A stretch of 64,000 bases of DNA from Deltaproteobacteria bacterium. GTDB taxonomy: Bacteria > Myxococcota_A > Polyangia > Polyangiales > Polyangiaceae. The notes under the pieces were generated by a model. The model saw only the letters and a list, made by a program, of their open reading frames with translations, searched no databases and was not told the DNA's origin. The number at the start of each line of letters is the position of its first letter. Within the stretch, counting starts at the first letter, position 1. The stretch lies in contig JACRCQ010000025.1 of NCBI GenBank assembly GCA_016218915.1, forward strand, positions 62,001 through 126,000. The letters run 5' to 3'. This document shows, one piece after another, positions 32,086 to 41,592 of this stretch. A program made the translations under genes and the position numbers.

Positions 32086-33228
32086 TTACTTGCCCAGATA
32101 GGCCTGTACGACCATCTGGTCGAATCGCTGCGTGCCGTCTTCGACTTCCGCGTAGCGCCCGGGTGCGTACGCGCCAGACTCAACTCCGATCTGCTGGCGC
32201 TCGCATGCGTCCCGATCCTGGGCGTTGGTGCGATCCCAGAACTCGAACACATCCTGGGTCGCGCACGGCTTTGCCGGGGACGTGCCGGGTGCGAAGTGGA
32301 TCTCGGCAACGACGCGCGTGGTTCGGCAATCGATGGGCCAGAGGCGATAGGTCAACAGGTAGTCGGGTTGGACGCTGAGCAGCAGATTGGGCCAGAGAAG
32401 GAAGTCGTAGACCTTGCCTCGGTCCACCTCGTCGCGGGCCGCAAGCAGCGGGCGATCGTGGGTCGCTCCGTCCATCGACACCGTCTCGACCCCGGCTGCG
32501 AGCTGCATCGTGCCCCCCTGCCACCTGCCCCGCGTCGGCAGGCTGGCGCTTCTGCCATACGGCGTCAGCCGATTGAGCTCCGGATGCACGTAGGGGAAAT
32601 GGTGCGACTCGGCGAAGTTCTCCGCGAGAAGCTTCCAGTTGGCCCTCACGATGTGCTCGACGCTTCGCGCGCGGACGAGGCTTGCGAGATCGAACCGGGC
32701 GAGCGGCTCAGGTACGGGGGAGAGATATCGCGGCAAGGAAGGGGAATCGCCGGAAGGACGCACGAACACGAAACCTTCCCAGACGCTGGTGGGGAGGCTT
32801 CGGAGAGCGTGGTCCTCTCGACGAAAGTTGCGAAGCTTCATGGTGTGCGGAGCGCCGATCAGCGCGCCCTCCAGAGAGAACGTCCATCCATGGTAGGGGC
32901 ACTGCACGCGTGCGAACCGCCCGCGCTCGCCACGCACGAGCGAGGAGGCGCGATGGGGGCAGACATTGTGGAAGGCGCGCAGCGTGCGGTCCTGGGCGCG
33001 CACGAGCAGCAGCCCCGCGGGGGTTGCATGCGACAGCATCCAGCTGCCTGGCACGGGCAGGTCCTGCTCCCGTGCGACGCATAGCCAGGCCCTATGGAAG
33101 ATGCGTTCCATCTCGAAGGCCAGGACGTCTGGGTTCGCATAGGCGGCGACCGGCAGCAGCCTGGCGCTTGCGAGCGGTCGTCGGACCGCGGCCAGCTCAT
33201 CGGGGGCAAAGGGAAGGCGTGCTTTCAT
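32086..33228 (-). CDS. Rieske-type aromatic-ring/quaternary-amine oxygenase
   Basis: A 380-aa oxygenase alpha-subunit-like protein. The Rieske 2Fe-2S site is C90-x-H92 (NVCPHRA) and C110-x2-H113 (QCPYHGWTF). The mononuclear iron site is NWKLLAENFAESHHFPYVHP, with His210 and His215. The usual bridging Asp position holds Glu207, as in carnitine monooxygenase-type members. A later Asp (DQMVVQAYL) could be the third iron ligand. The enzyme needs an external reductase, which is not seen here. It shares a divergent promoter region with the first putative oxygenase on the plus strand. The substrate is unknown. The start at 33228 is where homology begins. Confidence 0.9.
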   Translation of the reverse strand: MKARLPFAPDELAAVRRPLASARLLPVAAYANPDVLAFEMERIFHRAWLCVAREQDLPVPGSWMLSHATPAGLLLVRAQDRTLRAFHNVCPHRASSLVRGERGRFARVQCPYHGWTFSLEGALIGAPHTMKLRNFRREDHALRSLPTSVWEGFVFVRPSGDSPSLPRYLSPVPEPLARFDLASLVRARSVEHIVRANWKLLAENFAESHHFPYVHPELNRLTPYGRSASLPTRGRWQGGTMQLAAGVETVSMDGATHDRPLLAARDEVDRGKVYDFLLWPNLLLSVQPDYLLTYRLWPIDCRTTRVVAEIHFAPGTSPAKPCATQDVFEFWDRTNAQDRDACERQQIGVESGAYAPGRYAEVEDGTQRFDQMVVQAYLGK

Positions 33229-33328
33229 GGGATGCGGAGCCGATGCGAGCGTAGGGCACCGGGGCGTTCGGTGACAAGGTTCGACATCCCGCCGGCTTGG
33301 CCGAAGGCCGCTCTGGCGGGCAGGCGAC

Positions 33329-33357
33329 TTGACATGCAGTCGCGCCTTTCCCATGAG
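33329..33357 (+). promoter_or_regulatory. Candidate sigma-70 promoter of the oxygenase/ATP-grasp cassette
   Basis: A consensus TTGACA (33329-33334), then 17 bp, then CATGAG, a weak -10. It lies 33 bp before the first plus-strand start. The -35 is perfect but the -10 matches only three of six bases, so this is a candidate and not a firm call. Confidence 0.3.
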
Positions 33358-33389
33358 CTGCGCGTCCAACTCCATCCCCGGCGGAGCGA

Positions 33390-34208
33390 ATGGCCCTGGT
33401 AGGAATCTGGGAACGCCCTTTCATCGACGTCGAGCCGTTCGTGGACACGGCCGCGTTCGATGCCATCCATGAAGAGGTCTGTCTGGCGCTTGCGAACGTG
33501 CAGGTCAGCTACACCGGCGGGAGCCACAAGACCATGGGGATCGTCCCACCGGCGCTGCGTGGCGACGCCTTCGTGGACTACGGGGAGGTGCTGCGCGCCA
33601 TGAGCGACGCGCAGTTCGAGCAGTTCTGCGGGCTGGCCGACGAGCCCGCCGCGATCGACCCGAGGCGACGCGCAGAGCTGGAATTCGGCGAGGAGCGAAG
33701 CCATCCCCTCAGCCGCAGGCAGATGCTCTACCTGAAGTTCCGCTTTGGCGTCTACTTCCCGTGGAAGGTCTACTACGAGCTGGTCCCGAACGCGTTCTGG
33801 AGTGAAAAGAGCTCGTCCGAGGGCAAGGACTTCACCGAAGAAGCCCGGCGGTTGTTCCCCAGAACGGTCTCCTTCGTGCAGTCGCTGCCATTCGAATCCA
33901 TCGGAAGCTGCAAGCTCCTGGGGCTGGAAGCCAATGACCACGGAACGATCCACCGGGACGCGGATCCGGCCGAGAAGCTGACGGTGGACCACTTCATCAC
34001 GTTCTGTCCCCGGGGCGACAAGCGGCTGTATCTGCTCGATGAAGCGGCGAACACGCGAGCGTATGCGCCTTCGCGTGCGTACTGGTTCAACGACTCGGAC
34101 TACCACGGAGTCGAGCCGGACCCCTTCTTCCGTTACTCGATCCGCGTGGATGGGGTCTTTCAGAGGGAATTTCTTGAGAAGCTCCTGAGAATCAACCTGG
34201 GTGACTAG
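33390..34208 (+). CDS. Putative Fe(II) oxygenase, 272 aa (paralog 1)
   Basis: A 272-aa protein that I cannot name from a characterised family but which shows the ligand pattern of double-stranded beta-helix 2OG-Fe(II) oxygenases: TIHRDADP (H188-x-D190), then DYHGVEPDP (H239) followed by FFRYSIRVDG (R248/R252). Highly conserved blocks shared with its paralog at 38339-39157 include RFGVYFPWKV, the LEANDH block and the YHGVEPDP-to-DGVF tail. No transmembrane region. It opens the plus-strand cassette. The next gene starts 54 bp later, which suggests co-transcription. Substrate unknown; a hydroxylase acting on a peptide or amine made by the ATP-grasp ligase is an inference. Confidence 0.7.
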   Translation: MALVGIWERPFIDVEPFVDTAAFDAIHEEVCLALANVQVSYTGGSHKTMGIVPPALRGDAFVDYGEVLRAMSDAQFEQFCGLADEPAAIDPRRRAELEFGEERSHPLSRRQMLYLKFRFGVYFPWKVYYELVPNAFWSEKSSSEGKDFTEEARRLFPRTVSFVQSLPFESIGSCKLLGLEANDHGTIHRDADPAEKLTVDHFITFCPRGDKRLYLLDEAANTRAYAPSRAYWFNDSDYHGVEPDPFFRYSIRVDGVFQREFLEKLLRINLGD

Positions 34209-34262
34209 GATTGTGATGGGCCGGGTCTACCGTTCACGCCCGATCGGCACCATGGGGATGCG

Positions 34263-35129
34263 ATGACAGGTGGTCAGCTGTTGTTGTACAGGTTCGGGTT
34301 TGCGGCGATCGCGACGCTTGCGCTGCTCTTGGTCCACGAGCTGGCGCATCGGTGGATGAGCGCGAAGCGGACGCACCCCCATCCCCCGATCGGACGCCCC
34401 GCAGAGGCGATCCTGTACCTGGGGCAGATGGTCGGCATCTTCATCGTGTCGGGCAACCTGGTCGCTGGCGTCGTCAAAGGTGAAAGCGTCCGATCCGATG
34501 CGATGTGGTTCGCGATCTTCGGCGCGGTTGCGGCGGTTCTGCTCGTAGGGACCGGAGAGCTCGGCGTCAGGCTCCTGCTGCGCTCGAAGCTGACGGCTGA
34601 GGTGCAGAGGGGCAATGTCGCGGCTGGAGTCGCAGCGTCGGGGCACTACGTTGCCACGGCCTTGATCGTGGGAGCCGCTGTGGGCGGCGAGGGCCTGAGC
34701 ATGATCGGCGTCTCGCTCACCTTCTTCGTGCTCGCGATCGTCACGCTGCAGGTCTTCGTGGTCCTGTTCCGGACCCTGACCTCCTACGACGACAGCGAGG
34801 AGATCCTGGCCGAGAATCTGGCAGCCGCCATCAGCTACGCCGGAGTGACGATCGGAATGGGGATCATCATCGGACAAGCGGTGGAAGGGACCTTCACGGG
34901 ATGGGTGCCTTCGCTCAAGGGTTACGCCAAGGCGCTCGTGTACTGCGGCACTCTGTACTTCGTCCGGCAGCTGCTCGTCCAGACCCTCATCGTCCGAGGG
35001 CCCTTGCGGTTGCGCGGCGGCAAGCTCGACGATCTGGTCGGTCGCAAGAGCGACGTGGGCGTGGCGGCGATCGAAGCCGGCGCATACATCGGTGCTGCCA
35101 TCCTGCTGGGGCATGTCCGTGACTTCTGA
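34263..35129 (+). CDS. DUF350 membrane protein (YjfL-like, duplicated)
   Basis: A 288-aa integral membrane protein with about eight hydrophobic helices. Two DUF350-like halves are visible. The second contains LAENLAAAISYAGVTIGMGI and a GQAVEGTF loop, typical of the family; the first contains GNVAAGVAASGHYVATALIV. In enterobacteria a DUF350 protein (YjfL) is encoded beside a glutathionylspermidine-synthase-like ATP-grasp enzyme (YjfC), the same pairing as here. The gene overlaps the ATP-grasp gene by 17 bp, so translation is probably coupled. Biochemical function is unknown; a membrane-stress role is a reasonable guess. Confidence 0.88.
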   Translation: MTGGQLLLYRFGFAAIATLALLLVHELAHRWMSAKRTHPHPPIGRPAEAILYLGQMVGIFIVSGNLVAGVVKGESVRSDAMWFAIFGAVAAVLLVGTGELGVRLLLRSKLTAEVQRGNVAAGVAASGHYVATALIVGAAVGGEGLSMIGVSLTFFVLAIVTLQVFVVLFRTLTSYDDSEEILAENLAAAISYAGVTIGMGIIIGQAVEGTFTGWVPSLKGYAKALVYCGTLYFVRQLLVQTLIVRGPLRLRGGKLDDLVGRKSDVGVAAIEAGAYIGAAILLGHVRDF

Positions 35130-36375
35130 GAACACCTCGAGCTACAACGAATTCGCTGAGCGGCTTGTCCAGGGCGGTGTGCTGCTCGACCCGTGGTACG
35201 AAGGGGAGCCTCGCTTCCAGGGGGAGCCTGTGTACCTCGAGCAGGGCACGGCCAGGGAGCTGTGCACGGCGGCGGAGGAGGTGGCAGGCGTCTACAACGA
35301 GCTGTGCGAGATCTGCGCAGGCCAGCCGGAGCTGATCGACGAGTTCTTCGGGCTGACGCCCTTTCAGAAGCTGATGTGGGCGAGCTCGACCCCTGCCTGG
35401 CACGGGATTGCACGAGCGGACTTCTTCGAGACGCCCGAGGGATTGCGGGTGTGTGAGCTGAACTGCGATACGCCCACGGGCGAAGCCGAAGCGGTTCTGA
35501 CCAATGCACTGGTAGCGGGGAGTGCAGAGGGGGTGGAGGATCCGAACGCGACTCTCGAGCAGCGTTTCTGCGAGATGGTGGACATGCTCGCAGGCGCGAC
35601 GCTCGAGCCTGGGTTCGAGCGCACCGTGGGGCTGGTCTACCCAACGGAGCTGACCGAGGATCTCCCCTTGATCAGGCTCTACCAGCAATGGCTCTCGGCG
35701 CGCGGATGGCGCGTCGTGCTCGGCTCTCCCTACAATCTCAAGCTGGCCAAGGACGGTCGCGCCATGCTCTTCGATGAGCCCTGCAGCGCAATCGTGCGCC
35801 ACTACAAGACGGACTGGTGGGGCGAGCGGGAATCGCCCTGGTTGGACGAAGCTCCCTACGCCGACCAGCAGCCCCTGGACCGTCAGCTTGCGGTGTTGAT
35901 CGAAGCCACCATCGAGAACCGCACGGTGGTCATCAACCCCCTCGGTTCGGTGCTGCCGCAGAACAAGAAGGCCATGGCCTTCATGTGGGAGAACAAGCAC
36001 CTGTTCAGCGAGGCGTCCCAGAGAATCATCGAGCAGCGTGTGCCTGTCACCGCGCGGCTGGAGGCGGTTCACAAGGAGCAGCTTTCGGCGCAGCGCGAGG
36101 ATTGGGTGCTGAAGTCGGACTACGGTGCCGAGGGCAACGAGGTCATCGTTGGACGGCTGGAATCCCAGGAGCTCTGGGACGAGAGTCTCGCGCAGGCTGC
36201 GCCGGGTCGCTGGATCGTGCAGAAGTACTTCCACGCGATCCCGAACGACAAGGGGGAGACGACCAACCTGGGAGTCTATGTCGTGGGCGGGCAGGCGAGC
36301 GGGCTGTACGCGCGAGTCTCGCGCGGTCCAACCAACGAGTACGCAAGGAGTGCGCCGACCCTGGTGCTGCGGTAG
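35113..36375 (+). CDS. Glutathionylspermidine-synthase-like ATP-grasp ligase
   Basis: A 420-aa cytoplasmic enzyme of the YgiC/YjfC family (C-terminal synthetase half of glutathionylspermidine synthase, lacking the amidase domain). Signatures: the family block LRVCELNCDTPTGEAEAVL (about 112-130), TDWWGE, VINPLGSVLPQNKKAMAFMW, then KSDYGAEGNEVIVGR and RWIVQKYFHAIP (ATP and metal binding). The chemistry expected is ATP-dependent amide bond formation between a carboxylate and an amine; the substrates are not known for this subfamily. The start at 35113 is the last Met before homology and overlaps the DUF350 gene. Confidence 0.9.
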   Translation: MSVTSENTSSYNEFAERLVQGGVLLDPWYEGEPRFQGEPVYLEQGTARELCTAAEEVAGVYNELCEICAGQPELIDEFFGLTPFQKLMWASSTPAWHGIARADFFETPEGLRVCELNCDTPTGEAEAVLTNALVAGSAEGVEDPNATLEQRFCEMVDMLAGATLEPGFERTVGLVYPTELTEDLPLIRLYQQWLSARGWRVVLGSPYNLKLAKDGRAMLFDEPCSAIVRHYKTDWWGERESPWLDEAPYADQQPLDRQLAVLIEATIENRTVVINPLGSVLPQNKKAMAFMWENKHLFSEASQRIIEQRVPVTARLEAVHKEQLSAQREDWVLKSDYGAEGNEVIVGRLESQELWDESLAQAAPGRWIVQKYFHAIPNDKGETTNLGVYVVGGQASGLYARVSRGPTNEYARSAPTLVLR

Positions 36376-36381
36376 GTAGCC

Positions 36382-37755
36382 ATGACGACCCCTTATGGGC
36401 CTCCCTTTCGACGTGATCAGTTCTTCCGCTCCGAAGCGCTGGCCGGCGCACGCTGGTGGCAGGACCAGCTACGTGCCAAGTCGAATCCCGTATCGCGACG
36501 TGCCCTGCTGCTGACCGTGGCCCTGGGCGCAGGGATCGTCGCGGTCGGAGGGGTGGGTGTGGCAATCGCCGCTGCGACTTCTGACGACGAGGAGGTCAAG
36601 AAGGAAGACTCCCTCACAGCGCAGAAGGCCCATGGCTGGGACTTCGGCTCGGAGCTGGAGCCCCTGCCCTTCGACCCGTCGACCAGTGGTTCGTTCGACC
36701 CGTCCGTGTGCTCGACGCTGGCGACCGATCTGGCACCGACGCAGCCGCGCCTGCAGCCCTACTACGTACCCACGCTCTTCCAGTCCTTGAGCGCAAAGCC
36801 CACGGGCGAGCTCCCTCCTGGCGCCCCGCGCGCCCTGCCCAGCGTCATGCGCCCTGTGCAAACGCCGGAGATGACCGTGGCCTACGAGCGTGGACGGGCG
36901 CTGGCGTCGCTGATGGCCGCGGCCCCGGCCGGCCGGGCCTTGCTCGTCGATCTGCCGGGCCCGGAGGCCGTCGCATTTGCCGCAGGTCTCGCTGAACGAC
37001 TCGAGCCGGTCTTCCTGTTCGACAATTGGCCTCACCCGAGAGGTGTCGTTGCCTCCCACGTCACCCTGGCCGCGGCCGTGAGCTATCTTCCTCGCTTCCG
37101 GGAAGCGGCAAGCACCCGCTCTCCCCAGGCCCCGCCGGTCTTCGTCCTGGACCGCAATCGCCTCAATCCTTATACCGACGACAGCGAGAAGTTCGACAAT
37201 CGATGTCTGGCGCGGACTCCACCGGTGTCAGGGCTCAAGGCGCTCGGGATCTCGCAGCTTCTGTACGTGTCGTCCAAAGCGGAGACGCAGGAAGGCGACG
37301 ATGTGATCGCGGACCTGGTGGCCTACAGCAACGCAGGCGTGGACGTGAAGACGGTTGCGGCGACGGACTTCCGCGCGGAAGACGCATTGCCGACGCCGGA
37401 TCCGGTGGCGCCAGGTGCCCGGGATGCGGGGGCGCCGATCGCAAAGGGCGGGGCGGTGCACGCCGGTCCGTACTATTACGGCGGATATGGTCACACGCAC
37501 CTTGCGTTCATCCATGCCTACGGCTGGGGAACGCCCGCTGCGCCGTTCCGTACGCCCACGAACGTCTCGCGCGGGTTCGCCTACCGTCCCGTGCCGCGCG
37601 CCACGATCTTCTCGCCCTCCGCCGGAGCGACCAAGTCCAAGCCCGCCGGGTTCGGGCAAGTCAGCACGGTGGTGAACCGCTCTACCGGGCGGGTGGTGGG
37701 CGTCCAGTTCGGACGCAGTGGTTCCTATGGACGCGGCTCCTCGTGGGGTGGATGA
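36382..37755 (+). CDS. Membrane-anchored protein of unknown function
   Basis: A 457-aa protein with a basic N-terminus (FRRDQFFRSEALAGARWW) and one transmembrane helix at about 53-75 (LLTVALGAGIVAVGGVGVAI), so most of the chain is outside the cytoplasm. Residues 120-320 contain YERGRALASLMAAAP and LVDLPGPEAVAFAAG blocks resembling a Rossmann-like domain. The C-terminal 100 residues are Gly/Ser/Tyr-rich (YYYGGYGHTHLAFIHAYGWG) with a terminal RSGSYGRGSSWGG. It may be the local equivalent of the DUF1190-type partners of YgiC-like ligases, but I do not see a firm match. It sits 6 bp after the ligase gene and overlaps the next gene. Confidence 0.65.
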   Translation: MTTPYGPPFRRDQFFRSEALAGARWWQDQLRAKSNPVSRRALLLTVALGAGIVAVGGVGVAIAAATSDDEEVKKEDSLTAQKAHGWDFGSELEPLPFDPSTSGSFDPSVCSTLATDLAPTQPRLQPYYVPTLFQSLSAKPTGELPPGAPRALPSVMRPVQTPEMTVAYERGRALASLMAAAPAGRALLVDLPGPEAVAFAAGLAERLEPVFLFDNWPHPRGVVASHVTLAAAVSYLPRFREAASTRSPQAPPVFVLDRNRLNPYTDDSEKFDNRCLARTPPVSGLKALGISQLLYVSSKAETQEGDDVIADLVAYSNAGVDVKTVAATDFRAEDALPTPDPVAPGARDAGAPIAKGGAVHAGPYYYGGYGHTHLAFIHAYGWGTPAAPFRTPTNVSRGFAYRPVPRATIFSPSAGATKSKPAGFGQVSTVVNRSTGRVVGVQFGRSGSYGRGSSWGG

Positions 37756-38336
37756 CAGCCATGCCGAACAGCCTTTTTGCCATCCAGGTGTTCGTGCGGA
37801 TCCAGCAGGGGATCACCCTGCGCTCCGACTTGCACAGCGTGCTCAGCCGGGCGCCGGAAGCGGCGACCTACGCGCAGAAGCGGGAGTTCTACCAGGCGCT
37901 GGTCAACGTGCTGGTGCCGTGGACCGAGCACTTCGAGCTTGGCAACTGGGACTTCACCGACGACGCGAGCGAGGCGGAGCGAGAGTACGAGAGCTGGTGC
38001 CAGGGGACGCTGGACGATGCACAGCAGTCGCCGCCCACGCCATTCTCCACCGGCTACCGGGACCCGTCGGAGGCGTACTACATGTTCGTGACGATGGTGT
38101 TCCTGCTGCAGACGGGAAGCAACGACGCGAACCTGATGGCACACTACTGCAATGTTCCCGAATTCCACTTGTGGAACAAGCAGACGTTCGCGCGGCTGCT
38201 CCGGGCGATTCCCATGATGAACTTCGTGCACGTGGTGAGCGATGCTGTGTACCTGTGCCCCGGCGACGACATGCGCGGCGTGAGCACCTCCGAGCTTCGA
38301 TCGGAGACGTACAGCTACCTGCGCCAGCTCCGGTAG
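37752..38336 (+). CDS. Unrecognised cytoplasmic protein, 194 aa
   Basis: The ATG overlaps the stop of the previous gene as ATGA, a classic translational-coupling arrangement. The product is compact and helical, with NSLFAIQVFVRIQQGITLRS, PWTEHFELGNWDFTDDASE, MFVTMVFLLQTGSNDANL and MMNFVHVVSDAVYLCPGD as likely conserved segments. It has no signal peptide, transmembrane helix or known motif. Being the last gene of the plus-strand cassette, it converges on the paralogous oxygenase gene with 2 bp between stops. An alternative start at 37761 would remove three residues. Confidence 0.65.
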   Translation: MTAMPNSLFAIQVFVRIQQGITLRSDLHSVLSRAPEAATYAQKREFYQALVNVLVPWTEHFELGNWDFTDDASEAEREYESWCQGTLDDAQQSPPTPFSTGYRDPSEAYYMFVTMVFLLQTGSNDANLMAHYCNVPEFHLWNKQTFARLLRAIPMMNFVHVVSDAVYLCPGDDMRGVSTSELRSETYSYLRQLR

Positions 38337-38338
38337 CT

Positions 38339-39157
38339 TCAGCTGCACAGCTTGCGCCGGAGGCGGGCCACGAACTCCGGCTCGAATACGCCGTCGATCC
38401 GGATCGAGTAACGGAAGTACGGATCCGGCTCCACGCCATGCCAGTCCATGTCGTTGAACCAGTAGATCCGCGACGCCACGTCCACCCGCTCCTCCTGGTC
38501 GTCGTCCGTGAGATAGAATCGCTTGTTGCCCGCCGGGCAGATCGTCATGCAGTGCTCGACCTGCTCGATGCTCCCGGGAGCCGTGTCCTGGTGCAGCGGC
38601 GCGTGATCGTTGGCCTCCAGGCCGAAGATGAGACAACGTCCGATCTCGACGAAGGGCAGGGATCGCAGCAGGGCGACGGTCTTGGGGAAGATCCGCTCGG
38701 CCTCGACGGGGATGGACTTGCCTGCACCCTGGTTCTTGTCTTCCCAGCGCTGGTTCTCGACGAAGTGGTAGACGACCTTCCAGGGGAAGTACACGCCGTA
38801 ACGGTACTTCATGTAGAGGATCTGCCGCTCGTTGAGCGGGTGATCGGTCTCGTCGCCGAAGCTGTACTCTGCCCGGCGATCAGGATCGAACAGGCTGGGA
38901 TCGTCCGCGAGCGACACGAACGCCTCGAACTGCGCCCGGTCGAACTTCGAGATCGTCAGCATGTAGTCCGCGTAGGGGTCGTCCGCGACCGCAGGGGCGA
39001 CGACCTGCATCCACTTCAGGCTCCCGCCCGTGCACGAGACATCGACCTGCGTCAGGCCCAGGCAGATCTCTTCGTGGATCTCCTCGAATGGCACGGGAGC
39101 GAGGAACGGCTCCAGATCGATGTACGGGTATCCCCAGATGCCATGCAGCCTCGCCAT
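38339..39157 (-). CDS. Putative Fe(II) oxygenase, 272 aa (paralog 2)
   Basis: End-to-end homolog of the 33390-34208 product, of identical length. The ligand pattern is kept: PLHQDTAP (H189-x-D191), DWHGVEPDP (H240), YFRYSIRIDGVF (R249). Conserved shared blocks include HPLNERQILYMKYRYGVYFP, LEANDH and ICPAGNKRFYL. It lies on the opposite strand and closes the minus-strand gene run, 32 bp downstream of a 2OG-Fe(II) oxygenase gene. The two copies flank the DUF350/ATP-grasp genes in opposite orientations. Substrate unknown. Confidence 0.7.
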   Translation of the reverse strand: MARLHGIWGYPYIDLEPFLAPVPFEEIHEEICLGLTQVDVSCTGGSLKWMQVVAPAVADDPYADYMLTISKFDRAQFEAFVSLADDPSLFDPDRRAEYSFGDETDHPLNERQILYMKYRYGVYFPWKVVYHFVENQRWEDKNQGAGKSIPVEAERIFPKTVALLRSLPFVEIGRCLIFGLEANDHAPLHQDTAPGSIEQVEHCMTICPAGNKRFYLTDDDQEERVDVASRIYWFNDMDWHGVEPDPYFRYSIRIDGVFEPEFVARLRRKLCS

Positions 39158-39189
39158 GTGCGCCCTCGCGGTGCCTCTGCCCAACGGGC

Positions 39190-39933
39190 CTAGAACCACG
39201 CCTCCCACCGACCCGCAGCCCAGCCGAGGTGCAGACTCGCCGATATCCGGTCCTGATCGCCCTCGAAAGGTTGAATCTGGTGGAGCCGGTAGCTGTCGAA
39301 TACCAGAAGGTCGCCCACGGCATACTCCAGGGTAAGGCTGTCCTTGCCGTCGCCGCACTCCTCTGTGCCCTGCTTCGGGTCCCAGAGCGCGTCCCACAGG
39401 CGCAGCCCGCCGCCCCGCACAGGCGGTTGCAGCATGAGCACGAGGCTGAGCGCGGGCGAGCGGCTCGAGCGCTGGGCGGGGGTGAGCCCCTCGTGGTCGA
39501 AGTGCACCACGCCGCCGGCGTTCGAGACCTCCTTGCCCGCCGGGAACACGTGCACCGCCGCGCCGCACCAGCCCCGCCGAGGCTCGACCCTGCCGCGCAC
39601 CACCGCTGCGGCGAGCTCGATCATGCGCGACTGCAGGCCCGGCGCGTGTCGTTCGACATTCAGATCCGACTCTGCAGCGCAGCGGAAGTACTCTGCCGTT
39701 CGCCCTTGCTCGAGATGCGTGTACCAGGCTCGTCCCAGCGTGAACTGCTCGCCGTCGAAATCCTCCACCCAGCAGCCGCGCCCGTCCTGCACCCCTTTCA
39801 CGTACCGGGCGCAAGCACCCTCGTCCATCGCAGCCTCGATTCGCACCGCCGGGCAGGCTGCAAGCAAGGTCGTCACCGAGGCCTGCGTGGAATCCAGCAG
39901 CTGCGGCAGGCTCAGGACCTCGACATCGCGCAT
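39190..39933 (-). CDS. 2OG-Fe(II) oxygenase superfamily protein
   Basis: A 247-aa protein with a typical prolyl-hydroxylase-like core: VVHFDHEGL (H144-x-D146), a strand GGGLRLWDALWD, AVGDLLVFDSYRLHQIQPF (H218) and DRISASLHLGW (R229 for 2-oxoglutarate). N-terminal residues 1-90 are unassigned. The start at 39933 is the first Met of the homologous region. It is 43 bp downstream of the potassium-channel gene on the same strand, probably in one transcription unit with it. Confidence 0.82.
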   Translation of the reverse strand: MRDVEVLSLPQLLDSTQASVTTLLAACPAVRIEAAMDEGACARYVKGVQDGRGCWVEDFDGEQFTLGRAWYTHLEQGRTAEYFRCAAESDLNVERHAPGLQSRMIELAAAVVRGRVEPRRGWCGAAVHVFPAGKEVSNAGGVVHFDHEGLTPAQRSSRSPALSLVLMLQPPVRGGGLRLWDALWDPKQGTEECGDGKDSLTLEYAVGDLLVFDSYRLHQIQPFEGDQDRISASLHLGWAAGRWEAWF

Positions 39934-39976
39934 GAGACGGAGTCTAACGCAACAACGACCCGTGGCAAGGGGAGCT

Positions 39977-41017
39977 TCAGAGCCTGATTCGCCGGGCCCC
40001 GATCGTGATGATGGAGTCGCCAGCGTGCACCTCGAAGTCGTCTGCAACCCGCAGCAGCGTCTTCTTGTCCCGCCTCACCCCGATCGGTATGTGCTCCAGC
40101 TCGCGGCACCGCGCTGCGACCTCCGAGAAGCGGCTGGCCTTGTCGTACGGCGTCAAGAAGAGCTGCTCGCCCGTGAGATTCGACAGAAGCTCCTCGACGA
40201 CGTCCTGCGCACCGACATTGACCACCTCGCTTCCAAGGAAGTGCGCGTCGAATCTGGAGGTGCACACCACGCGGTCACAGCCTGCCTTGTGCAGCAGCTC
40301 CAGCGTCGATTCGTCGATGCACTCCACGACCGTCCTGGCTTTGTGCTCTCGCCCCTCGATCGCGAGCACGATGGCGACGTTCCGATCGTCCGTGTGCGGG
40401 TCACCCGGATTCTTCGACAGAATCACTGCGTGCGCTGCTTCGTCGACCGAGGCCCGCGACAGCGTATCGTCCCGCGTCGGATTCCCCCTGACGTAGTGGA
40501 CGTGCCGCTGCTCGAGCTCGGGTGGAAGCTCCTCGAGATCCTCGTCGACCAGGATGACGTCGATGTCGTGGCCGAGCGCATTGGCATGCCGAAGCTCGTC
40601 GATGACACGAAGCACCTTGGACAGATTCGGGAAGTTGATGACGATCAGGTGATTGTTGAGCTTCATACCGCCAAGCCCTCTGTGCGCCCTGGTCTTGGCT
40701 TCCACAAGGGCGCTCGCCGCCAGGGACAGCACGTAGCCGAGCAGCCCGATTCCAAAGAGCATGATGGGAACCGCCACAAGGAACCGTCCGCCCGCCGACG
40801 TCGGAAAGAAGTCGCCATAGCCGATCGTCGTGATCGTCACCAGCGCCCACCAGAACGCGTCGGTCCACCCCAGCTCCGGCTTCGCAGCCAGCTCGAAGTA
40901 CAGGAACCCGCTCGCTCCGTAGCAGAGCACCGCAACGAGCAGCGCAACGACACGCAGGTGCGACGGAGGATTGCGCAGCCAGCGCCTGAGGAAGCGGGGG
41001 AACAGCAACGGTATCAT
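39977..41017 (-). CDS. Ion-transport-2/TrkA-N potassium channel
   Basis: A 346-aa membrane protein. TM1 is at about 22-42, a pore loop with the K+ selectivity filter TITTIGYGDFF (64-69) and TM2 at about 77-105. A cytoplasmic RCK/TrkA-N-like domain follows (KLNNHLIVINFPNLSKVLRV ... DVILVDEDLEEL), lacking the canonical GxGxxG, so NAD binding is doubtful. TrkA-C-like residues continue to the end. The start at 41017 overlaps the stop of the nuclease-fold gene (ATGA), showing coupling. Potassium channels of this type are reported near DUF350/ATP-grasp/PspA-linked envelope-stress loci. Confidence 0.9.
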   Translation of the reverse strand: MIPLLFPRFLRRWLRNPPSHLRVVALLVAVLCYGASGFLYFELAAKPELGWTDAFWWALVTITTIGYGDFFPTSAGGRFLVAVPIMLFGIGLLGYVLSLAASALVEAKTRAHRGLGGMKLNNHLIVINFPNLSKVLRVIDELRHANALGHDIDVILVDEDLEELPPELEQRHVHYVRGNPTRDDTLSRASVDEAAHAVILSKNPGDPHTDDRNVAIVLAIEGREHKARTVVECIDESTLELLHKAGCDRVVCTSRFDAHFLGSEVVNVGAQDVVEELLSNLTGEQLFLTPYDKASRFSEVAARCRELEHIPIGVRRDKKTLLRVADDFEVHAGDSIITIGARRIRL

Positions 41018-41592
41018 GGCGCCTCCGCGCGCCACTCGCGCACCAGCAGGTCGGCCCGTCCCGCAACCGACGGCTCGGACCACAGCCCCCGCCGCTCCCC
41101 GCGCGCCGACTGCTGCTCCTGCAGGTACAGGTCCATGGCCTGGAACGGGTAGACCGTGTACACGAGGGCCAGGCCACGACGCACCAGCTCCAGTCCCAGA
41201 TCCTCTTCGTCCACGTAGAGCGTCGCCAGCGCGCGCCCGTACTTGTCCTTGGGGGTCGAGTGGAGAACGACCCGCAACAGCTTGCCCGAAGCCTTGCGCT
41301 CGATGGCCGTGACCGCTTCACGCCCGAAGCGGTCGCTCGGATCCTTGCCTTGCCCGGACGCGAAGGCCTTGATGCCCAATAGGCGAACGGAGACGGTATC
41401 GCCGGAATCGAGCCGCACGAGCACCGTGTCCCCATCCACGACGCTCGCAAGAGACACGATCGCGCCGTTGGTGAGCGCTGGGCCTGCCTGCGTGATCTGC
41501 TGCCGCTGCCTTCGGACCCCCAGCGCGAACCAACCCGAAGCGCTCAACAGCACGAACACCACGACCCAGAACAAGGACACGCGTCGCAACAA
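41014..41592 (-). CDS. Membrane-anchored staphylococcal-nuclease-fold protein
   Basis: A 192-aa protein with an N-terminal transmembrane helix (FWVVVFVLLSASGWFAL) and an SNase-like OB fold: SVVDGDTVLVRL, VSVRLLGIKA, DKYGRALATLYV, ELVRRGLALVY. The catalytic Arg of DKYGRA is present, but the usual DxPE after GI is replaced by KAFASG, so the general-base Glu seems missing. It may bind nucleic acid or act differently. It lies 93 bp downstream of the XPB-type helicase gene and overlaps the channel gene. Confidence 0.82.
   Translation of the reverse strand: MLRRVSLFWVVVFVLLSASGWFALGVRRQRQQITQAGPALTNGAIVSLASVVDGDTVLVRLDSGDTVSVRLLGIKAFASGQGKDPSDRFGREAVTAIERKASGKLLRVVLHSTPKDKYGRALATLYVDEEDLGLELVRRGLALVYTVYPFQAMDLYLQEQQSARGERRGLWSEPSVAGRADLLVREWRAEAP

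Follow-up and report, generated by a model that had tools for sequence, protein, structure and literature searches.

The window analysed here is a stretch of 64,000 nucleotides (G000:C71:62001-126000) from a 9.2 Mb myxobacterial genome, and our subject is a cassette of ten genes within it that combines a peptide-amine-type ligase with a DUF350 membrane protein and four oxygenases (Table 1). The cassette lies between genes for DUF790 and XPB, names that we adopt from a first-pass annotation of the same DNA. All ten genes that the annotation had placed there are present at those positions, and their close spacing is operon-like, as had been proposed: D350 and LIG overlap by 17 bp, an ATGA overlap occurs at U1/U2 and again at SN/KCH, and the two gene runs converge at 38,336/38,339, 2 bp apart. 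RIE and OXA are divergent, with approximately 160 bp between them. A sigma-70-like promoter was looked for in this gap and none was found, which says little.

Table 1. Features of the ten-gene cassette, numbered from the first letter of the window.
Feature	Position	Strand	Basis
RIE, Rieske non-heme oxygenase alpha subunit, putative quaternary-amine type	32086..33228 (true start ~33228)	-	PF00848 3.6e-42, PF00355 5.7e-17
OXA, predicted 2-oxoglutarate/Fe(II) oxygenase	33390..34208	+	no Pfam family; invariant residues, modelled fold
D350, DUF350 membrane protein, two repeats	34263..35129	+	PF03994 5.2e-30
LIG, glutathionylspermidine-synthase-like ATP-grasp ligase, without amidase domain	35113..36375	+	PF03738 (GSP_synth) 1.2e-15
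U1, membrane-anchored exported protein: RR (Tat-like) signal, alpha/beta core, Gly/Ser tail	36382..37755	+	no Pfam match
U1 C-terminal tail FGRSGSYGRGSSWGG, predicted ligase substrate	37708..37752	+	tail motif, likeness to tails of other ligase partners
U2, DUF1517-like	37752..38336 (alternative start 37761)	+	homologues match PF07466
OXB, paralogue of OXA	38339..39157	-	53% identity to OXA
2OG, prolyl-hydroxylase-like 2OG/Fe(II) oxygenase	39190..39933	-	weak PF13759 (2OG-FeII_Oxy_5)/PF22814 (WelO5)
KCH, K+ channel with RCK/TrkA-N domain	39977..41017	-	Ion_trans_2 + TrkA_N
SN, membrane-anchored SNase-fold protein	41014..41592	-	PF00565 1.6e-19

The pairing of DUF350 with a YgiC/YjfC-type ligase, already recognised in the first-pass annotation, is borne out by the PF03994 and PF03738 genes and by the catalytic residues, which are kept. 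LIG (420 aa) corresponds to the synthetase domain alone of the glutathionylspermidine synthase family, and the N-terminal amidase domain of the bifunctional Gsp enzyme was not matched. It is approximately 21% identical to YgiC, with which R100, D102, E114 and N116 of LIG align at R100, D102, E115 and N117. In the fungal ATP-grasp enzyme Cp1B, the residues R139, D141, E163 and N165 are proposed to form the acyl phosphate (PMC12568646); the LIG/YgiC set was matched to this set by pattern, without a computed alignment. YgiC and YjfC are annotated by RefSeq as peptide--spermidine ligases, and the peptide-spermidine ligation is credited to Pederick 2023, as cited in PMC12568646. The source genome holds several matches to the Spermine_synth family, which is a broad one, and because of these matches we consider polyamines plausible in this host.

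The two proteins between LIG and OXB had been listed as unrecognised. This holds for U1; U2, however, is DUF1517-like: it has no Pfam match of its own, but of its 41 homologues 12 match PF07466 (best 8.4e-8). Across 43 aligned U1 homologues, R39-R40 is nearly invariant before a hydrophobic stretch, and the corresponding sequence reads RRDLLKG in locus L179; these features suggest an export signal resembling the twin-arginine translocation (Tat) type. A lipobox-like Cys occurs in some phyla. The core of U1 is well modelled, and the last 12 residues are disordered (predicted local distance difference test, pLDDT, <50). Neither Foldseek nor VIA gave a confident fold match for the core, although a new fold is not thereby shown. 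Membership of U1 in DUF1190 was considered and rejected, as none of the 43 homologues match that family.

The U1 of the window ends RSGSYGRGSSWGG. A tail motif of this kind occurs within the last 32 residues in 43 of 53 U1 homologues versus 2 of ~496 other open reading frames, a background from which seven other U1 or U1-like copies were removed by eye. The pattern used was a loosened one, the first strict regular expression having missed YgiB and YjfM. These two E. coli proteins have a DUF1190 core; the tail of YjfM is RGGYGRSSSARGHWGG, with the full ending ...SRGGYGRSSSARGHWGG, and YgiB ends ...TRGGFGESV...SSRSMGG. Ligase neighbours on plasmids end similarly, as in Vibrio (SRGGWGSSVSSRSSWGG; tail RGGWGSSVSSRSSWGG), Sulfitobacter (SRGGFGRSGGSRGFGG), Acinetobacter (RGGFGRSGFSFGG), Rhizobium (ARQGFGGRSSFSFGG), Deinococcus (SRGGLTSTARGALSSGG) and others. 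The likeness is one of type (R, G/S, aromatic, GG), and in a pairwise test by blastp U1 and YjfM gave an E value of 0.017. In G000:C10 and G322, distant relatives of LIG (25% identical) stand beside U1-like proteins that end GGGG and RGGFGG. This arrangement, a GSP_synth-like ligase of 25% identity adjoining a U1-like protein with a Gly-rich tail, is seen in L141 (7352-9690) and L145 (8595-10987), and the ligase is the third such gene in the genome of the window. Because different carriers bear a like tail with a like enzyme alongside, the tail is the best candidate substrate, and we consider it rather likely that the U1 tail is what LIG acts on.

The conservation of these genes was examined at 76 LIG loci, obtained by scanning one genome per species, with tblastn of all window proteins against the loci. 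The D350-LIG-U1-U2 core occurs in Myxococcota, Chlorobiota, Bacteroidota, Acidobacteriota, Tectimicrobiota, Ignavibacteriota and Planctomycetota (Kuenenia), with D350 or U2 absent from some loci. OXA, OXB and 2OG stand beside the core only in Myxococcota, and so does RIE apart from one partial match; the absence of the OXA/OXB (OX) family outside Myxococcota was judged from the LIG loci that other phyla contain, together with five single genomes. No OXA was found on plasmids. The commonest order in Myxococcota is 2OG> <U2-U1-OXA | D350-LIG> <OXB-RIE, and the window contains the identical parts, rearranged. Thirteen loci of the oxygenase-bearing clade have flanks of at least 8 kb on each side; D350 is found in 13 of them, U1 and U2 in 11, OXA in 10, 2OG in 9, and OXB and RIE in 7, whereas OXA, OXB and 2OG occur in none of the 21 further LIG loci that have flanks of equal length. 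Across the clade as a whole (29 loci), D350 is always near LIG. The association of these genes is far beyond chance, with the core conserved across many phyla and the oxygenases repeatedly found next to it in Myxococcota. The first-pass annotation had allowed that the neighbourhood might be confined to this genome, or that its parts might have unrelated distributions; instead, most of the genes are kept together far beyond the source genome.

Within this association the cassette behaves as modules, {D350, LIG}, {OXA, U1, U2, 2OG} and {OXB, RIE}. One subclade (L023, L025, L031, L038, L039 and L134) has D350-LIG, sometimes with OXB-RIE, and U1-U2-OXA are not nearby; several of these loci adjoin the same housekeeping genes. 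Apart from the housekeeping genes near this subclade, the further shared neighbours found were ABC proteins and, at 16 loci, Ser/Thr kinases, which form a very common family; none was convincing. The genome of the window also carries a second, oxygenase-free D350-LIG-U1-U2 copy (L125, G000:C16), whose ligase is 50% identical and which offers a natural internal control. This copy and a similar oxygenase-free paralogous copy in Sorangium So ce26 (L055) fall outside the oxygenase clade.

Co-occurrence was assessed in 380 Myxococcota genomes with a completeness of 85% or more. Of these, 28 contain the OX family, 36 LIG and 28 2OG, and almost all OX genomes hold two copies, OXA and OXB. OX occurs together with LIG in 26 genomes (Fisher p 7e-30) and with 2OG likewise in 26 (Fisher p 1e-35), both p values ignoring shared ancestry; the partners frequently lie on different contigs. 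2OG is often distant from the cassette (60 kb away in G020 and on other contigs in several genomes), and therefore its tie to OX is more than physical. In the ligase tree, all oxygenase-bearing loci fall in one Myxococcota clade (32 rows, 28 with OX; support 99/98), and the OX labels require 5 changes versus 22.7 in shuffles. A single clade of this kind is most simply explained if the oxygenases were recruited once. Taken together, a functional tie of the four oxygenases to the ligase system is supported.

According to one alternative, the ligase couples an acid to either an amine or an amino acid, yielding a free amide, and this small molecule is then tailored by the oxygenases, as in the E-64 cluster. 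That cluster does combine a 2OG oxygenase with an ATP-grasp enzyme structurally similar to YgiC/YjfC (PMC12568646), multiple oxygenases are typical of tailoring, and RIE is of the amine type. However, strong U1 matches in single-protein searches accompany LIG in 35 of 36 genomes (in G135 the U1 survives on a different contig from LIG), the tie of LIG to a partner with such a tail extends to most of the other lineages that were sampled, and the core lacks oxygenases in most lineages. The E-64 product is a free small molecule, and its cluster is without a protein partner, DUF350, a Rieske enzyme or U1; conversely, among the ten genes of the cassette there is no E-64-type adenylating amide synthetase, no amino-acid decarboxylase and no exporter. 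We therefore regard this alternative as quite unlikely. The first-pass annotation had suggested that the oxygenases could hydroxylate the amide product of the ligase, and the conserved U1 tail indicates that this product is probably a protein tail and not a free small molecule.

The channel and the nuclease-fold protein are less firmly attached. SN adjoins KCH in 9 of 10 other loci, and KCH is found in 11 of 69 family genomes, independent of OX and mostly away from LIG. We accordingly rejected the two as core parts. The annotation had linked potassium channels to loci of this type, and a channel is indeed a recurrent partner: in genus g249 (L178, L179), SN-KCH-D350-LIG-U1 lie on one strand without oxygenases, which represents an independent linkage; ion channels adjoin the ligase in Rhizobium (L150) and Deinococcus; and a K channel within DUF350/ligase operons has been described (PMC11237479). 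The link is nevertheless facultative and outside the usual cassette, so KCH and SN are a facultative partner pair. On a Sulfitobacter plasmid (L151, 5352-6257), a bestrophin-family ion channel is located beside a ligase-DUF1190 pair. These partnerships bear on a second alternative, namely that the locus is a loose envelope-stress neighbourhood held together by common regulation or ecology (ion balance, membrane stress, oxygen) and not by one pathway. In other bacteria, related DUF350/ligase/DUF1190 operons are found together with PspA and with K channels (PMC11237479), and the channel and SNase genes of the cassette are linked only sometimes, as such a neighbourhood would allow. The tight co-occurrence of 2OG with OX, even where unlinked, and of LIG with U1 suggests a shared pathway instead, and we hold the loose neighbourhood to be distinctly improbable.

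All four oxygenases look catalytically intact from their sequences. OXA and OXB, described earlier as two paralogous putative Fe(II) oxygenases, are indeed paralogues that share invariant residues: H188xD190, H239 and R248xS250 (OXA numbering) are invariant in 32 OXA/OXB homologues, in agreement with an HxD...H iron site and a 2OG-binding Arg. The AlphaFold2 model of OXA (pLDDT 95.9) is a double-stranded beta-helix, and among known structures it comes closest to those of 2OG oxygenases and related non-heme hydroxylases (7v4m, Z 11.3, root-mean-square deviation 2.8 over 148; PHD2, Z ~10.9). From this fold, modelled for OXA alone, and the invariant residues, both proteins are predicted to be 2-oxoglutarate oxygenases. 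Asp_Arg_Hydrox (PF05118) gave weak matches in 3 of the 32 members (best E 0.0081), and a search of the OXA sequence against the PDB returned 14-3-3 matches alone, which we attribute to chance. The 2OG protein has an HxD...H...RxS/T motif (HFD...H...RIS-type) in 13 of 13 sequences. Its WelO5 match raised the possibility of a halogenase, which is not favoured, because the HxD is present and points to the hydroxylase type. The closest solved structures to RIE are 3n0q, 3vca, 4qup (a demethylase) and 6y8j (carnitine monooxygenase). Its motifs are CxH..CxxH and ENFxESHH..VH (the 2-His site), and its bridging position is occupied by Glu, as it is in the carnitine/demethylase-type enzymes aligned with it. 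RIE thus appears to belong to the amine-type Rieske oxygenases, whose relatives act on glycine betaine, carnitine and stachydrine. Elsewhere, ygiC of E. coli MG1655 (L147, 3422-5435) is followed by the convergent ygiD, whose annotation as 4,5-DOPA dioxygenase extradiol places a non-heme iron oxygenase beside the E. coli ligase as well. On an Acinetobacter plasmid (L155, 3501-6008), a Rieske-type gene lies ~300 bp downstream of the ligase; it is 28% identical to RIE over ~100 residues, possibly a coincidence.

The tails of U1 differ in the oxygenase clade. GS[FL]GR is mostly replaced by GSWNR or GSWTR (13 of 23 tails versus 1 of 31 others), and a VPV hairpin sequence is present in 14 of 23 versus 0 of 31; the tail of the window is intermediate, with GSYGR and no VPV. 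This shift fits an action of the oxygenases on the tail. It also bears on a third alternative, in which the oxygenases work upstream and produce an unusual amine or acid for LIG to attach to U1. RIE is nearest to enzymes that act on free quaternary amines and is paired with OXB in relatives, and {OXB, RIE} remains with D350-LIG where OXA, U1 and U2 are not nearby (L031), all of which would suit a supply role. On the other hand, OXA stands beside U1-U2 in most loci, and the tails of the clade have changed in sequence; both points would suit an OXA, if not the other oxygenases, that works on the tail. On balance, an upstream role is unlikely in our view.

Our proposal is that the cassette serves to modify an envelope protein at its tail. 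The cytoplasmic LIG would use ATP to activate the C-terminal carboxylate of the flexible Gly/Ser/Arg/aromatic tail of U1 and would join it to an amine, most likely a polyamine, an identification to which we give an even chance. U1 would then be exported and membrane-anchored next to the DUF350 membrane protein, with U2 as an accessory. This ligase step is well supported by the comparison of loci. In the one Myxococcota clade, RIE may act on the amine part, and OXA, OXB and 2OG may hydroxylate the U1 tail or the attached amine. That the oxygenases act on the U1 conjugate or its parts, and not elsewhere, falls just short of an even prospect. In some genomes KCH could couple the output to ion homeostasis. 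The whole proposal, in which LIG joins an amine to the U1 tail and the oxygenases extend the modification, appears to us about evenly balanced between right and wrong. Several observations weigh against it. The genome counts are phylogenetically non-independent; one of the 11 plasmid ligase loci, that of Azospirillum, is without a tailed neighbour; 49 of 53 U1 homologues end in G or S, not always in Gly, and about half lack GG; and the tail differences of the oxygenase clade may reflect ancestry only. In addition, the YgiB carrier resembles a Sec-type lipoprotein, and thus Tat export after modification is not general.

The nearest known systems are the E. coli loci yjfIJKLM-yjfC and ygiB-ygiC. 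They share with the window a GSP_synth-type ligase with matching catalytic residues, DUF350 (in the yjf locus), adjacent genes, and an exported partner with a GS-rich tail ending in GG. They differ in that the partner core of the window is U1 and not DUF1190, a DUF1517-like U2 and four extra oxygenases are present, and PspA, DUF2170 and DUF2491 are absent. The PspA-linked SpermGS-ATP-grasp operons (PMC11237479) likewise include the ligase, DUF350, an exported partner and, in some genomes, a channel, whereas the ten genes of the window do not include PspA, and their channel is a facultative partner. The remark in the first-pass annotation that four oxygenases belong to no familiar version of the system agrees with that paper, in whose version none are described. 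The cassette is a DUF350/peptide-amine-ligase system in which the carrier protein is new and four oxygenases have been recruited, and its function is what we infer above.

In hypusine formation on eIF5A and in the lysine modification of EF-P, a protein first receives an amine, which an iron enzyme then hydroxylates. The logic that we propose for the cassette is alike, although the enzymes are unrelated, the attachment in those proteins is to a side chain and not to the C-terminus, and the carrier is a translation factor and not an envelope protein. A broader possibility, which we regard as doubtful, is that the cassette is an envelope counterpart of hypusination, in which an ATP-grasp ligase amidates the C-terminal Gly/Ser tail of a membrane-anchored protein with a polyamine-like amine, and up to four iron oxygenases follow with hydroxylation or demethylation, and that the RGGFG...GG tail is a family-wide ligase address across phyla and on unrelated carriers.

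YgiC/YjfC-type ligases are widespread and are reported to couple peptides to spermidine, and no natural substrate is named for them in the accessible literature; the tail may nevertheless have been noticed earlier elsewhere. A tail common to unrelated neighbours in many lineages is a testable candidate substrate, also in E. coli. The oxygenase variant, with its clear phylogenetic signature, could reveal a new protein modification and give a function to the Pfam-less OXA/OXB family. We consider the myxobacterial cassette as pointing to an unstudied protein modification.

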